Assembly (NCBI GenBank): GCA_964019425.1
Contig: OZ025785.1
Location: forward strand, 1,449,501 to 1,513,500
DNA length: 64,000 nt
Direction: 5' to 3'
From: Flectonema sp. DT1601
Taxonomy: Eukaryota; Euglenozoa; Diplonemea; Diplonemida; Diplonemidae
Within the stretch, counting starts at the first letter, position 1. Every line of letters begins with the position of its first letter. The position numbers were made by a program, and so were the translations under genes. Shown piece after piece: positions 50,066-59,758 of the stretch. A model generated the notes under the pieces. The model worked only from the letters and a program-made list of their open reading frames with translations. It made no database searches and was not told where the DNA came from.

Positions 50066-50729
50066 ATAAAAGAAAAAGATAGCATTTACCTACTATTCCT
50101 CTCTTTGTTTTTTTTTTTTTTTTTTTTTAATATTATGATTCTTTTGTTACACCCTTTTTTTTTTTTTTTTTTTTTTTTTTCGCCGTCCTCCGAATAGCTA
50201 AATCATTGTTATGTATTATATTAGTTTTCGTTTTTTTTTTCCTTTTTTTTTTTTTTTCCTTCTCACTCGTCCCCTTTAAAAAATTAACTTAAAAAAAAGG
50301 AAAATTGCTTATGCTTCTCCCTTTATAGAGCCACTCGGAGAGCTACCATCTTTTTTTTTAATAAAGATATGCACCGTACGGTAGCTCACAATCTAAAAAC
50401 CTTCTTAAAGCCATTCTGGTGGTGACAGATTTTTTTTTTTTTTTTTCTATTAAAAGTTCGTTAGTTAAATTTCTTTTTATCCATCCATAAAATAATCTCT
50501 TTTTTTTTTTAATCACGAACGTGAAAAAAAACTTTGGAGGAAAAAAAAAAAAAAAAATAATAACATATCTTAACTGTGACTATACTATTGTGGATGTTGT
50601 TGTAGCTTTGAGTTGGGTTTTTTTTTTTTTTTTTTTTTTTTTGTACAGGAAAATGAATTGAAAACCATGTGAAGTAAGAATGTAATGTGCACCACCTGTT
50701 ATATTAATCACATCATTTATTACAGGTAC
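50066..50729. other. Homopolymer-rich intergenic region
   Basis: No protein gene seen. T runs lie near 50109-50129, 50157-50180, 50429-50447 and 50619-50642. A perfect 8-bp inverted repeat (GAGCTACC 50340-50347, GGTAGCTC 50380-50387) precedes the T run at 50429, a possible small RNA. ATTTATTACAG ending at 50725 is the likely acceptor of the channel gene. Confidence 0.5.
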
Positions 50730-53700
50730 ATGCAAAATGAAAAAACCAGAGCTGTACCGTCTGGAGGAAACACCGCCGTGGTGCTGTCGTCACCAGGCTA
50801 CCGATCAGCTGCTGCATGTGCCGATCCTTATTTAGAGAAAGACGCACTTCGAATAACATCTTTATTGTCGTCATCAGGTTTCACTGTCCATTTACTTCTT
50901 GGAGATGCAGCCACAGCTACTCAATTCTTAGCAGTTTTAAGTGCTATTGCAAAAGGTAAGTCTTCAGATAAAATTTTGGTTTTTATATTTGCACCTGGCA
51001 GGATAAACAGTAAGGGAGATCACTGTCTATTGTTATACAACTCAACTCTAAGAGATGAGAATACTTGGCTTCGCATGAATGACATTGGAGTTGCTTTTAA
51101 TAAGTTACGATCCTCACTTCGAATAGCATTTATTTTATCTCTAGATATTGCTGCTTCTCCTGTTGCTGCTGCTCGTGTTGCTCAAAGGAAGAGATTTCCA
51201 TCAGCTGTACCTAAAGGGACATCTTGTGGGTTTGTTCAGATTTTAACTAGAAATGGAAAACATCATTCACTTACTTCTGGGATAGCTCCAGCTATTACTC
51301 ATGGGATTATTATTGCATTGTCTGGTCATCGTATTAGAAGACGTACTATCAGACTAAAGCATCTCATTGAACTCTTGCAGTCGAGAGGTTTACAAGATCT
51401 CAGACTACCACATCAAAGAGATGCAGAGTTAGTTATTGTTGACTCCCCTCAAGGACATGAAAAGTTTCCAACTGCTAGTTCACCGTCGCATGCCAACGGG
51501 AATGGAATCTCTGGAGCATTAGTGGCCTCCGCTGTAATTAATTTTGTAATTATCGATGCGCCCACAACAAACATCGTCGGACTAAACAAGTTCGGAGCTT
51601 CCTTCGCAAAGAATGCCTGCGCTGAGATGGCTGGCATCAGTCCAGATTACCTTTCATCTGTACCAGTTCTTCCAATGGGACCAAGTCATGGTGAACATTG
51701 GGTAGTCTCAACAAGAAGTAGTGAAGCGGAGACGTTATTGCTTTCAATTTGTAGAGTTCACGAGTCGGTTACTTTAGTAAAGTGTTGGGATGTCAGTGAC
51801 GGTACACTCGCTCTCTGGTTCGCTTCCGATTCAGGGATAAAATCAAAGATCCGATTCGCTGGTATAACCGGACCATTTACCCTCGGAAGTGCTCGGGTAG
51901 ATATGTCACCCGACATCTTATATCAACTGGAGAGTACTGTTCGTGACTCATGGCCAGTATGCCCTCCAATGCCTGCTAATAGTGGCATACCTGAAGTTTG
52001 CTTATTAACTCTCAGCAGGTATGATGTGTCTTTGAAAGATTTGGGTCCTTCAGTACAAAAGACTTCTGCTGCTGAACTTGTCAACAAGTTGGAATCAAAA
52101 GATTCACAACCGACTCTATTAGTTCAAAACAATGGTATTAAATGTTCTTCATTTACGTTGAAACCTCCGCAAATCGACACCAGGAGTTCTTCTGAACGCA
52201 GAAAAGAGTTAGAGACTTACGCAGCTAAGTTACTAGAAAACAGTCACATCGAAGTTGAAGAAGTTTCCAGCGAACCCAGCGATGAGGAGGATGACGAACC
52301 CGACCCAAAACCAACAATAAGGAAAAGAGTGCAACTCTCACCACCACTTGGTAACTCTCCTCTTGGGAATTCTCAAAACAATGTTTATACTCCATTGTTC
52401 ACTCCAATACAACATACTGCTTCAGGGATATTTGGGAACAGTTCTCCAAGTGGTACCTTAGAACCAGGAGGAGGGATCACAAACACGTCTAGCGGTAATA
52501 TTAGCAAACGATTTGAGACGAAGCAGGTGTTACCAAATTTTGGTGAAAAACAACCGAAATTAGACTTCTTAAAGATGGGTGATAAGATCAGTCTGATGTC
52601 TCTTTGTAGTGAAGAAGGATTACTGTCTTCACAATGGTATGGAGATGTGTGCTATCCTTGTACTAGAATATACTTCGGAAAGTCATCTATTCCTCGAAAT
52701 TTTGAAAATTGTTCATTTCAAATAGAACGTAGCACTGACGACATTCAATTTAGTAGTAAATCAAAAGGACACAATTCCTTGAATCACAACTTCGTTGCTT
52801 ACGGAGATGTCGTCAGACTCGTCAACGTTCTCTCAAGCCGAAACCTTTGCGTTCAACCAACAGGCAAACCAGAATCACCATATCGGTTAGCTTTATTACA
52901 CAAAGAAGATACAGTTGGAAGTGAAACATGTTTGTCCTTCAAATTCACACCAGCATCGAATATGAGAGTAGAAGGTGAGAAGGTCCGCGTAGGTGACAGC
53001 GTTGATATCGTTTCTTCTCTATCAAATTGTTTAGTTAGCGGAGCTCCAGGTAGTAGTTCTACACAACAGAGTAAGAGTAATGGAAAAGTACCTGAGAACA
53101 TGGCTCGATTAGTTCCGATTCAGAAAAACGTCGGAAAACGAGCATCAACAGATCGAAAGAGAAATAAAAACAGCAACTGGATGATCGGCGCCTACCACAT
53201 TCGTAATATAGACGACGCTGGCGATACCGGTAACGAAGATAATTTACATACAGGACATCCTGTTCTTCTATTTCATAAGGAGTCTGAAGGATTTCTAACT
53301 GCTGATGTTGAACTACCCGACAATCAGATCCCCTGTTTGAGTGGAGACCTTTCAAACAAAAGACCAGATAGAAATGTCGCCAAAGCCTTTGTATCTGACA
53401 CAGCTGAAAACCACACAATCTACTACGACATTCAAGAAAGTCGAAAAGAGTCGTCAACATATGTGGTTAGTGACTTTCCACACTCATCTAATGCTATATG
53501 GCTTATTGAAGGCATTGATCCAACACGGGGAGGTCCAGTTCATTGGTTACACCAAAGAAAAGCATACAGAATAAAACATGTTGCCACATCGGGTTATTTA
53601 TGTGTTTCGGAATCGCAGGTAGATAGAACTCCAAAGTTAACGATCGTCAACTCACCTGATAACTGTCATACTGTAGTAGTATTTTATCCTGTCAATGCTG

Positions 53701-56700
53701 TTATAGGAACACCAGAAGAGGCTGGAATGCTTGTGACAAGTTCTTATTGTAGAATTCAATTTGCACATTCTCGTCTGTGGTTACATATTGACGGTAATCA
53801 CGGTGACACACTGGGATCATCAGCGACATCTGCTGTTACAAGAGCAGTAAAAGTATCGGTACAGCCAACCTATGATGCAGTCTTTGCGATACGACTTGGA
53901 TCTAAATTGGAATTTGAAAAACTGACATCAATATGTTCAATGAGACGTGATCTCGGAAAGTGTATCAGTAGTTGGATTATCGGATCTTTAACTGGAAGAA
54001 AACCAGCTTATAAGAATCGTAAAGAAACCCTTCCTTCACTTATAAGACGTGAATCATCTGGCTCTTGGAGAAGAGACAGTCTGGATACCTTTCCGAAGAT
54101 AATTGAAGACACTACAGATATCCTAACAAACTTAATAATGTTCGGATGTATGACTGGTGATCAAAAAGAAGAATTGCAGGACTCAGCATCTCTTGATCCG
54201 TTTTCTTTCCATAGTGCGGCAGATCCTGATAAACAGCACATGTTATTCAGTCAGAATATCCATTTGTGGGTTCTCAAAGCAATTCAAGTTCCCTTTCAAA
54301 TGAATGAGTCAAACAGTCCTGACCAATCTCCAAGCAGCCGAAAAGACGATGAAACTTTATTCGATCCTTCAATTACTCACATTTATAAACTTTGTTATCA
54401 TTTATTGAAGGAGATGGTTCGTGGACAACCTGCTTTAGCTTTGCGATTATCTCCGTTTATTCCTTTTATTGAGAGTCAACTTTCTTATGATATAAATGCA
54501 ATGCATACTTTAGTACAAATATATAAAGGTAACTATCGGTTGTTATGTGGATTGTCAACTGGACAGTTGGAGTCGTACATGCGACCAAGTCCTTTCTTGG
54601 AACTGCTATCGTGTTCGTGTGTCAGCAGCACCGTCGACGATGTCGAAAGTGGCATCCAACGAAATCAGAATATCATAATGTCTCTTCTTGAGAAGTACAG
54701 TATTGTATTTCCAACTAGGACGCATAAAGGTCAAATATGGATTAAACCATCAAAAGAGTTACTTTCAAGAAAACCAAACCCAAATCCTCGATCAAACAAG
54801 AAACACGCTCACAAGGAAAGGAAATTTTCTTTTGGTAGTATTCCTGTTCATAAATCGTTTAAGCATGTTAAAGGTAAAATGATGGAAATTGTCAGAAGTG
54901 ACAGTTCATCAGGCAGTGACTCCTCTGTAATTGACTCGGCTGAAGAAACAGATGACGATGTTCAATTCTCGTCTGATGATGAAGATATTAATGAACTCCT
55001 AAAGAGAGCACCACCACCATCACCACCACCTCGAAGAGGTTCAAAAGAATTACTTATCAATCATAACAATGTTCCTACAGATGATGACTCCGACATGGGT
55101 TCATCTCCACCAATTGATACGTCTCAACGACAGGGTTGGAAAGTTGTGAATTATTTCATTACTCACGATAACATTCGTTATATAAATCACTTTCAAGGTA
55201 CTCTTATGCTATTCTCAATGCTTTGTGTTGATTGTGATCCTGCGACACGTTCAAAGGTTTCGAAAGAGATATCCTTTAAGGAAGCTCTCATTGGTATTTT
55301 TATGGATTTCAAATCCCCAGAGTGCGACAGCATCAGAACAGCGTATGCCACTATTGCGAGGTATTTATATATTTATCCAGCGAGACTTGTTGTTGGGAGT
55401 CCACCACAGAGAATTCAACGAGTCAACATCCAACTTGATGGTGATTCTCATAACAGCAATTCAAGTAAACCTGACTCACAAAAACAAAAACCGGATTCTC
55501 AGTTAAGAAGTCTGTTACGCAACACAGCAGCATCACCAACATCATCTGAGGGAAGCCCTCGTGAAAGCAAACGAGACGGAAACATCAGAGCACTAAAAGG
55601 AATATTATCTCAGATACTAAAAGAAAATCAGATTCAGGTCACTGAATGCACTCAAAGAAATGCACTTTTGACTGAAGTTTTCAAATTAATTTTAGAAATG
55701 CTACGGGGCGGACTCTACAAACCAAGTGAAATAAAAGACTTGCTTCCATCTGTACTTGGCTTACTGGACCCGGCAACTGATGTAGTGGCTTGTAAAGACG
55801 TTGATAATCCGCCTTATAAAATTCAACTAGGCAGGAAAATGCTTCGACACTCATCGATGTGGTTGAGTTCGGTTTTGATGAAGAGCAAAATGAGTAGGAA
55901 ATCGGTTTGGCAGAGGAGTCCAACGAAGAAGAATCTCAATAGAACTTTTCCTTCGATAAAAAGAAAACAAGCACAGACACTTGATTCTTCTACAGCACCA
56001 ACTTGTAGTAAGTTTGACTACAATGAAATGTCAACCCTAGTTATGCAAACTAAAACAGAAGCATGCCGACTTCTAACAACTGTAATAAATAATGAAAACG
56101 TCGAAGGGTACAATTTCAGAAGATGGATGTCTGAGATTGAAATTAACGGAGTTAGAGGCTACACTCTTCTTTCGAATATCCTTCTTGAAGTTACTCTTTA
56201 TCAAGGGAGTACAGTTTTATTTACTACAGCACTCGATACTCTTTATAGAGCTTTATCTGAAACTCTCGGAAGGAATGTAAATGGAAGTCGCATAGAACAC
56301 GTCTCTGAAGTCGATCAGTCTTCAGTTGACGCAATGGCTCGACTCCTGAGTGGTAATATTACTGAACCGCGAGCAGGTGTGAAGCCCCCAACGAAGATCA
56401 CTAATTTGTTCAAACACCTTCGGGAGGTTTCTAAAGCTGATCACCTCTGTGTGGCGCTATTAAGAACCTTCACAACGGTCTTGAAATTTGCTTCCGAGAA
56501 TGAGATTACTTGCGCTGATGGTGAGCCGCTGTCTCTGATTCGATGCCAAAATGCTCTCAACAAGTTGGGATTCACCATTGACTTGGCGATCCTCATCGAA
56601 GGCAATCCCGATGGAGAAGTCGTACGTCACGCTCTAGAGTGTGGTACTGCAATGTTGGAAGGTGGAAACAAACATGTTCAGGAGTCACTTTATAATTACT

Positions 56701-59700
56701 TTCTCGCGAGGGACGATGAAGTGCTGTTCTTGAAACTCATCAACAGGCTACGAACTGCAATGACATTTGTAGCTGACGTTGAGCAAGGAGGAACTTATCA
56801 GAGAACTCGAAGGCAGAGTATCCGTCTTAAGAAACCTCCACTTACACCATTGTTACCACGAGGTGACGCTCCTTCATTCCCTTCAGCCTCTTTGTCATTT
56901 GGTACTAGCAGCACAGCCAGCAGACGTCGTGGTGACGGAATTCTTGCAGCAAATGTTTCCTTTTTACTCAGCGGTAAGGATTTGATGAGCCAACTGGATG
57001 CCAACATCGATTATCAAAAGATTGATTATTACAAATCAAAGAACCTCTTTCATACGAGAGAAGTGATGAGGTATCTTCAACTGTTTTGTGAAGGACACAA
57101 TACAAAACTTCAAAACTACCTCAGAGTTCAGGGAGATAACGTACACTCGTTTAACTTAGTAAGCGAGTCATTGACGTTCTTGGAATGTATTTTACAAGTC
57201 GAGCATATGGATGAGTTCATGGCTGGAGTGGTGTTACAAACATTTGACTCACTAACAGAATACTGTCAAGGTCCTGTACCAGAGAATCAAGTGACATTAG
57301 TAAATGGAGGTGTCTGTTTGGCAGTGACTGCTGCGTTTCAAGGTCCGAGTGATGGAGGAGTTGACTTTTCAATTGTTCAAAATACAACACCAGAATTAGT
57401 TGAAAAGATCCGAACAGCAGCAGTCGCAACAGTCTTATCTCTACTAGAGGGAGTAACAGATAAAGCGATAGCTGAGAAGATGCTGTCTCAACATAGTAAT
57501 GTTGGTCTTGATGTTAATGTTTTCAGATCAGCTCTTGCAGATGTTTGTGAAATACGTCAGCTTGCTGAAGCTAATGAAGACACTGGTATGTTGGAATACG
57601 CGCTAGAACTCGGATTCTCAATTTATATTCTGTTTAAAACTCTCCATGCTTACATCGATCCATCCGTCAAGGACTTTGTTGATGATGTTGAAGGCACTTC
57701 CTACTTCGCTGAGCGAACTGGTCGCATTGAAATCTGTCGAGGGATTGATCTTGAAAGAGTTTATTTCAGAATACCTGAAATTTGTGTCGATCCCGGACTG
57801 AGTAACCGAACGAAGTACCAATTGCTTTGGTCAGTTAGAAGAAATACACCTTCTGAAAGAATAGTTGATTTCTTTGAGAAGGGTGACTACCTGGTTTATG
57901 AAGTAGAGTACACTGAGAAATGGTTTCAAAGAAACGAGTCTGTGCCTACGATGTTACTTCAGATATTAACGTCGTCAAAGTTTAGAGGAAAGTCATGTCG
58001 GACTTTGTGTCGAAGGTTTGGAGGGACTACAGAAATCACAATGGTTTACTTAGCGATATTTGTAAACTTTTTAATAATCTGTCAAGATTCTGGGATGGGA
58101 AAATTAGACATCAGTATCCAAATAGTAGCTGGACTTCAAATAGCCCTCCTGTCGATTTCATTGGCATCCTTCTCTGTTACTGAAGTTCCTCAGTTGGCTT
58201 ATCGGAGGTACAGAGAGTTAGTTAAGAAGAGAAAGTTTTTACAACAAAGTGCTATGGCTACTCAACAATTCAATACAATGTATGATAAGATGTTAGCACT
58301 TCAGGAAAGAAGTAATTCAATCACCGCTACTGAGAGTAGCGATGAAGAATGCTCATCCGAAAGTGAAATCTTAGAAACCGAAGTCATCAAACAAGAAGTT
58401 AAACATGATACCCCACCTCCACCTCCACATCAAGTTACATTCTTAAACTCTGTTAAGGCTTTCTTAAAAGTCGATCCTCGTATATTCTTAAAGGCAGTTC
58501 ATAACTACATCCTTGAAGCAGAAGATCCCGAAGAAAACCCTGCCAAAGCAACCATTCAAATATGCATAACAACCCCAACGTTCTACTACTACGGTATTAT
58601 GATGATTTTTGCTCTTGCTGGATTCTTTATTGAACCTCTATTCTTGTCTGTTCATCTAATTAGCATTGCTCGTGCTTCAGACGTGTTGCATAATGTAATC
58701 CGTGCAGTTACTCAGAATGGAAAGGCACTAATATTGACGTGTATCTTGGGAATGGTTGTTATTTATTTGTTTTCTGTCGTCGCTTATATTTTCTTTCAAG
58801 ATGCGCTTAGGAATTCTGAAGGTGACCGGGTCTGTGATAGCCTTATTCATTGCTTTATGTATGCTCTTACTCACGGCGTGAGGAGTGACGGAGGTCTTGG
58901 TGATCACATGGCTGACCCACACTGGTCAAGTGGATTCTATGGAATGCAAATGGCATTTGAAGTGTTGTTCTTCGTGTTAGTAATTGTTATCTTACTTAAC
59001 ATTATCTTTGGTATTATTATTGATACTTTTGCTGAACTTCGTTCACAAAGACAATCTGTTGAAGAAGACATCCGCACCAAGTGTTTTATTTGTGGAATTG
59101 AATCATCCGAGTTTGATCGCCATGCGGAAGGCTTCCAACGTCACATCAAAGAAGATCATAACATGTGGAATTACGTCTTCTTTTTACATCATCTTCGTTT
59201 GAGAGACACGTCTGAATACACCGGACAAGAATCCTACGTCGCTGAGAAAGTCAAACACAGCGATCTATCATTCTTCCCGCTCAACAAAGCGCTAGCTGTT
59301 GATCACAAAAAACAAGAAGAAGACGGTATGTAATATTGTTTTGTGTGATAGTACTTCCTACTATTTGTTAGGTACATAAAAAATAATAATAAACAGAAAT
59401 GGTAGAACACATGCACAGCCAAGACGTTATGAGACAACTGGAAGAATTAGATGTCAGGGTATGTGAATGGTTGTTGCGGTGATTTAACAATCAAAATAAT
59501 AAAATAAAATAAAAACAGTTGGGAGAAAGTATGGCAATTAGCAGTAAGGATGTTCAGGACATTAGAAACCAACTAGGAGAGGTCAGCAGGCTACTGCGAG
59601 ACGTGTCGTCATCAGTGCATCAACACAAAGGAATTGAAGGAAAGAAAGCAAGTAGTAGACACAGTTTACTAACACCAGCGACATCCGGACAACTGTCGTT

Positions 59701-59758
59701 TGCGATATCGAGGAGAGACCATAACAGTCAGTTTGGAGGTAGTTTTGCCTTCACATAA
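50730..59758 (+). CDS. IP3-receptor/ryanodine-type Ca2+ channel with N-terminal caspase-like domain
   Basis: The exons are 50730-59325, 59397-59458 and 59519-59758, giving 2965 aa. The ATG at 50730 follows an acceptor-like site by 4 nt. Residues ~15-220 resemble the caspase fold: strand AVVLSSPGY, SLLSSSGFTVHLLLGD, strand ILVFIFAPGR where SGHG is expected (87-91), FILSLDIAAS where DAC is expected (138-143). Then an unassigned region (~220-600), an Ins145/suppressor-type domain (~610-780, GDKISLMSLCSEEG), MIR-type region (~815-1050), RIH (~1120-1270), RIH-associated (~2100-2190, MRYLQLFCEGHN) and about six membrane segments (~2445-2775). The pore has DGGLGD near 2721. A zinc element (CFICG, HIKEDHNMWNY) and EYTGQESYVAEK match IP3 receptors closely. 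A coiled-coil tail is supplied by the last two exons. Predicted to release Ca2+ from internal stores; IP3 gating is inferred. Confidence 0.9.
59326..59396 (+). other. Intron 1 of the Ca2+ channel gene
   Basis: The 71-nt intron runs from GTATGT to AATAAACAG. It splits a Glu codon; reading through it stops after three codons. Confidence 0.75.
59459..59518 (+). other. Intron 2 of the Ca2+ channel gene
   Basis: The 60-nt intron runs from GTATGT to AAAAACAG in phase 0. It connects VMRQLEELDVR to LGESMAISSKDVQDIRNQLG, a continuous heptad pattern like the C-terminal coiled coil of IP3 receptors. Confidence 0.75.

Follow-up and report, generated by a model that had tools for sequence, protein, structure and literature searches.

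A channel of the IP3 receptor family headed by a predicted caspase-like domain

In channels of the inositol 1,4,5-trisphosphate receptor (IP3R) and ryanodine receptor (RyR) family, the N-terminus faces the cytosol. Among caspase-type proteins, type I metacaspases require Ca2+, and MCA4 of the euglenozoan Trypanosoma brucei is a metacaspase pseudopeptidase, metacaspase-like but devoid of peptidase activity, which is a separate flagellar-membrane protein and not a channel. Pseudo-caspase regulators of the cFLIP type, in which a dead caspase fold binds caspases, are animal death-domain proteins without a channel; they serve here, by likeness of mechanism only, as the model for the mode of action proposed below. 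Pseudo-caspases and IP3R-type channels are each known, and their combination in one protein is apparently unreported, as titles and the opening parts of abstracts contained no report of a caspase domain and an IP3R-type channel in one protein. Here we describe a gene on the + strand of a 64,000-nucleotide stretch of contig OZ025785.1 (the window; positions are counted from its first letter), the product of which (W; residues counted from the ATG at 50730) appears to combine the two. We favour, with a probability of a little under 0.6, the reading that W is an IP3R/RyR-family channel, probably from a diplonemid, with two additions ahead of its trefoil region: a catalytically dead metacaspase-like domain, which would act by docking a partner, and a second, small domain. 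The gating of protist IP3R-like channels is poorly known, and so is the role of dead euglenozoan metacaspases; a conserved fusion unites both questions in one protein and opens a direct test.

The original prediction had read the locus as a caspase-type domain devoid of its catalytic His and Cys, fused in an uninterrupted open reading frame (ORF) to an IP3R-type channel. The channel is well founded: five Pfam families score above the cut-off on one ORF, in the order Ins145_P3_rec, MIR, RIH, RIH_assoc and Ion_trans, and the presence of these five diagnostic domains in one protein, together with a tree that places W among IP3R-like proteins, assigns it to the IP3R/RyR family. W shares with that family the order of the five domains and a GGxGD-like filter (the selectivity-filter-like motif GVRSDGGLGD in the Ion_trans region, compared with GGGVGD of two fish IP3Rs). 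It differs by the ~600 residues that precede the channel, which hold a first domain, a second conserved domain and a low-complexity linker. The features of the protein-coding part are as follows.

50763..51389, + strand: predicted pseudo-caspase domain, ~residues 12–220 (AlphaFold2, Foldseek and VIA-align; Pfam C14 below the cut-off)
50991..51002, + strand: APGR where SGHG would stand, with Pro89 in the position of the catalytic His (hhalign register to the caspase profile and to L043, a caspase-like protein of the same genome)
51141..51158, + strand: LDIAAS where DCCHSG would stand (register set by eye, using main strand four of the model)
51492..51959, + strand: second conserved N-terminal domain, ~residues 255–410 (conserved in W, P0002, P0003 and P0006)
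52002..52514, + strand: low-complexity linker, ~residues 425–595 (by eye from the translation and alignment)
52716..53021, + strand: Ins145_P3_rec, best stretch, the IP3R/RyR N-terminal trefoil region (Pfam, E 7.8e-12)
53397..53786, + strand: MIR domain (Pfam, E 8.9e-7)
54120..54719, + strand: RIH domain (Pfam, E 9.6e-7)
57051..57326, + strand: RIH_assoc domain (Pfam, E 2e-24)
58611..59054, + strand: Ion_trans pore region (Pfam, E 1.7e-16)

Predicted fold and loss of the catalytic residues

The N-terminal region was modelled with AlphaFold2 from the orthologue alignment, with neither caspase rows nor templates in the input. Nearly all the fold matches among those listed by Foldseek and VIA-align were caspase-type entries, the predicted fold is caspase-like and not an unrelated one that would have refuted the original reading, and the order of structural elements in the model fits caspases, in line with the elements that had been named in the translation (GFTVHLLL, FAPGR and LDIAAS, all present). 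A caspase fold is thus predicted with moderate confidence for the front half and low confidence for the back half, the predicted local distance difference test (pLDDT) values of ten-residue blocks being 53–90 over residues 11–140 and 31–57 over residues 141–220.

W, P0003, P0004 and P0006 carry APGR, APCR, APCQ and AQGR around the catalytic His position, which is thus occupied by Pro in the first three and by Gln in P0006. The catalytic Cys position, which is covered by W, P0003 and P0006, is occupied by Asp, Pro and Pro, respectively. The His register rests on the profile alignment and on L043, in which this position is a His, and the Cys register was set by eye. No Cys is found within the LDIAAS-equivalent motif of W, P0003 or P0006, P0006 having one Cys six residues ahead of the catalytic place. 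By comparison, eight metacaspase loci in this genome have SGHG (six), AGHG (one) or CGHG (one) and DCCHSG (seven) or DCAHSG (one). The His-Cys dyad of an active caspase or metacaspase is therefore missing, as originally proposed, and these motifs support a domain that would be catalytically dead, both catalytic residues having been lost.

Sequence relationship to caspases

For the N-terminal piece of W, Pfam returned no family other than Peptidase_C14 (PF00656; E 0.15 and 0.069). The C14 scores lay below the cut-off, at 12.2 and 13.3 bits against a gathering score of 21.4; among the alignment rows, two of five matched C14. With hhalign, the four-row pseudo-caspase alignment was compared with 16 caspase domains from this genome (L008, which is permuted, was dropped and L045, L046 and L047 were not included). 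The score was 42.2 (P 1.4e-5), compared with 18.1 for the best of 100 column shuffles and 15.3 for the reversed alignment, and single rows of W, P0003 and P0004 gave P values of 2e-4, 9.9e-4 and 3.8e-4. The score fell to 29.7 (P 0.0016) without L043 and L036 (14 rows) and was 21.9 (P 0.024) with four other dead ones; since it depends on dead L043 and L036, the chain of sequence evidence runs via dead relatives. The second domain, as a control, scored 14.9 against the active profile.

A profile built from the same four rows was run against 2236 ORFs from 29 loci and the window, and it matched L043 (E 6.3e-7) and L036 (E 0.003), both of which exceed the Pfam C14 cut-off; apart from these and itself, nothing in this set scored below E 0.29. 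Loci L001–L008 were included in this search and excluded from that with the caspase-domain profile; the locus sets of both searches were deliberately rich in C14, and their E-values are not genome-wide. L043, the best match among the 29 loci, has in common with the W domain a stretch around 'AAT', but differs in being a 296-codon ORF with a PDZ domain, in having a His at the catalytic place and in having no channel domain reported. With metacaspases and Peptidase_C14 in general, the W domain shares its predicted fold and its resemblance to L043 and L036, both C14 proteins of this genome, and it differs from them in lacking the catalytic His and Cys, in its Pfam score below the cut-off and in its fusion to a channel. 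The sequence evidence is thinner than the fold evidence, and its chain passes through dead relatives, chiefly L043.

Orthologues and origin of the fusion

Residues 1–640 of W were compared by BLAST with 119 proteins. P0002 matched from residue 300 on (E 8.5e-165), P0003 over residues 16–639 (E 9.9e-79), P0006 over residues 7–419 (E 2.7e-25) and P0004 over residues 15–118 (E 4.1e-11) and 361–639 (E 2.1e-13), while P0005 matched only from residue 595, although by eye its front looks like the last part of the second domain. P0003–P0006 had been found with a query from the channel end, among the best 120 of 178 matches; a protein search with residues 1–640 returned only W itself and P0002, and with the N-terminal 297 residues alone as protein query none of 3773 candidates matched at E ≤ 10. 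W and these five proteins form one group, supported at 100/100, in a 76-row tree. Its input was 67 of the 119 homologues together with the window gene and nine paralogue loci, of which L018 was lost, as it had no long enough match. Within the tree, W clusters with P0004, from Diplonema papillatum, and two EukProt transcript proteins, and P0004 is also the closest named relative of the channel among the best 120 of 178 matches; the assignment of W to a diplonemid rests on these two observations.

The whole pseudo-caspase is present in three of the six members and its front half in one (P0004), and P0002 and P0005 have none in their predicted proteins. Over the aligned domain, P0003 is 33% identical to W, P0006 32% and the front part of P0004 37%, and 14 columns of the four-row alignment are invariant, the start Met among them; whole-protein identity between P0003 and W is 42.8%. 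Such identity and invariant columns at this divergence suggest selection on the domain.

Nine RIH_assoc loci were found in the genome besides the window gene. By eye, the ORFs of eight of the nine paralogues begin close to the trefoil region, and L035 is split over several ORFs; no pseudo-caspase match was found in front of any of the nine within the ~0.4 to 3.5 kb examined for each. Given the presence of the domain in orthologues and the lack of a match in the examined paralogue DNA, a single gain is the simplest history, and the pseudo-caspase was probably gained once, in the ancestor of one orthologue group. With the window gene included, L009–L018 amount to ten IP3R/RyR-type loci in one protist genome, and L009, L010, L016 and L017 are identical, over the part that entered the tree, to P0007, P0012, P0019 and P0036. 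These four proteins come from ENA, so that this genome or a twin of it has probably been deposited there.

Alternative explanations

Several observations weigh against a caspase-derived domain fused to the channel. The overall model has a mean pLDDT of 49.5 and a pTM (predicted template modelling score) of 0.48, the Foldseek TMq values are low (0.19–0.29), with a root-mean-square deviation above 10 in many rows, and a single-sequence AlphaFold2 run on residues 1–237 gave a pLDDT of 34.9 and no usable model. The back half, which is p10-like, has low model confidence and is without sequence support in hhalign. One of the five alignment rows matches DUF3572 with an E-value of 0.054, a little lower than the best obtained for C14, and the P0006 row alone gave an hhalign P of 0.094. 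Against the nine active-looking metacaspase rows, hhalign scored only 18.9, which was equalled by 8 of 300 column shuffles; the four-row profile misses all eight of the best metacaspase loci, which were present in the searched set, and the caspase-domain profile matches the window ORF at E 0.59 only, though at the right place. The closest orthologue, P0002, and P0005 are without the domain in their predicted proteins. Weak sequence scores, Pfam values below the cut-off, modest model confidence and low TM-scores are what would be expected if the domain were another alpha/beta sandwich resembling caspases. We nevertheless hold this to be very improbable, given that the listed fold matches are nearly all of caspase type, the order of elements fits and L043 and L036 form a bridge to C14. 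It is hardly credible that the domain is an active protease using other catalytic residues: nothing was found in favour of this, with no His in any of four proteins and no Cys in any of three at the catalytic places.

If the fold is that of a caspase, the domain could still be idle. A chance fusion with a metacaspase, followed by the loss of catalysis, might have left a tolerated or structural relic that now acts as a spacer or stabiliser of the channel N-terminus. Caspase-like domains that lack catalytic residues are frequent in this genome (C14 matches, by eye), the P0004 protein retains no more than the front half and the domain is missing from two orthologue proteins; still, the gap in P0004 could be a gene-model error, and the retention of the domain at 32–37% identity with its invariant columns speaks for selection, which makes a relic unlikely. 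That the pseudo-caspase is here part of a transcript of its own or of a longer isoform, the working channel starting near codon 300 as in the predicted P0002, seems to us quite improbable. P0002 is labelled a complete ORF and begins at a Met matching residue 300 of W, and P0005 matches W from residue 595 only. However, the start of P0002 lies inside a stretch common to W and P0003, as would be the case for a truncated transcript, and P0002 and P0005 may both be truncated transcripts; the longest T run between 51003 and 51626 is at most 4, against 25 before 50648. Above all, P0003, an assembled transcript of a relative, has the domain and the channel in one ORF, so the outcome that would have spoken for separate transcripts was not seen there. 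As related channels carry the same front end, a caspase-like front end conserved as a regulatory attachment is more likely than an accident.

Possible role of the front end

A regulatory role of the pseudo-caspase is plausible by analogy. It would lie on the cytosolic face, as the N-termini of the IP3R/RyR family do, tethered by the flexible linker and acting through binding and not through cutting. The docked partner would most likely be another caspase-fold protein, such proteins being numerous in the genome, and docking might alter the gating of the channel or position the partner at the site of Ca2+ release. A metacaspase docked beside a Ca2+ source is an attractive idea because type I metacaspases need Ca2+. 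In a more specific version, which we consider unlikely, the dead metacaspase that diplonemids have on the channel would partner either an active metacaspase that depends on Ca2+ or the dead caspase-PDZ protein; the state of the metacaspase would gate the channel, the Ca2+ would feed the docked protease, and this would replace or supplement the input from IP3 in a channel without contact residues of the animal type.

The comparison of IP3 contacts covered six positions, R504, K508, R511, Y567, R568 and K569, which we take to be the animal contact positions; the R265–R269 loop lies outside it, the alignment being too poor there. W has P, H, F, Q, P and A, so that animal-type contact residues are not present at the six positions compared. 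The YRK triad is missing in 22 of the 23 non-reference rows, protists and fungi included, and is unaligned in one (Naegleria), and some rows retain one or two of the remaining contact residues. From these alignments, gating of W by IP3 appears unsupported and the missing contacts do not seem peculiar to the fused channel; 'IP3 receptor-type' is best taken as a label of architecture and not as demonstrated IP3 gating.

In the second domain, a His-Trp and a Trp-Phe pair are invariant. It could be matched to no known family: there were zero Pfam matches and sequence matches in the PDB reached only E 0.78–1.2, and VIA-align hardly probed this part.

Gene model and genomic context

The + strand ORF of 2882 codons (50685–59333) has zero internal stops. 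It proved uninterrupted, as had been proposed, but it is not the whole gene, because two 3' introns lead to further exons that match the tail of P0002, with a stop ending at 59758. The full W has 2965 amino acids. The probable start codon is the ATG at 50730, a start also given originally and borne out by P0003, P0004 and P0006, in which the corresponding place is at most a few residues from the N-terminus. The exons and introns below were placed by the match to the P0002 tail.

50730..59758, + strand: whole gene (splice sites set by match to the tail of the orthologue P0002)
50618..50648, + strand: run of 25 T (50618–50642), then the first AG (50647–50648), candidate trans-splice acceptor (read from the sequence, putative role)
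50674–50725, + strand: intron-like stretch of 52 nt, GTAAGA...TTACAG, between the T run with its AG and the start codon (read from the sequence, putative role)
50730–59325, + strand: first exon
59326–59396, + strand: first intron, 71 nt
59397–59458, + strand: second exon
59459–59518, + strand: second intron, 60 nt
59519–59758, + strand: third exon, with the stop

A 46-base intron look-alike (50956–51001, GTAAGT...CAG), which overlies the APGR motif within the pseudo-caspase coding sequence, was rejected as an intron because its removal shifts the reading frame and the alignment with P0003 continues across it, with one-residue gaps only. The T run with its AG upstream of the gene, together with the common orientation of all long ORFs, would fit a trans-splicing euglenozoan. 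All 18 ORFs of at least 300 codons in the 64-kb window are on the + strand, and the spacers that were read hold long T runs.

Other caspase-type genes in the genome

The genome searched comprises 89.5 Mb in 92 contigs, in which C14 gave 23 matches in 20 ORFs, some with intact motifs and others without (by eye). Caspase-like domains that have, by eye, lost one or both catalytic residues were seen in L036, L039, L040, L041, L042, L043 and L046, and these dead caspases, among them L043 with its PDZ domain, form an expanded set in the genome. L008 (1075–2145) and L047 (913–2103) are metacaspases in which the p10-like part precedes the p20-like part, presumably the order known as type III. L037 (1892–6523) is an ORF of 1544 codons with four tandem caspase-type domains and a PDZ domain.
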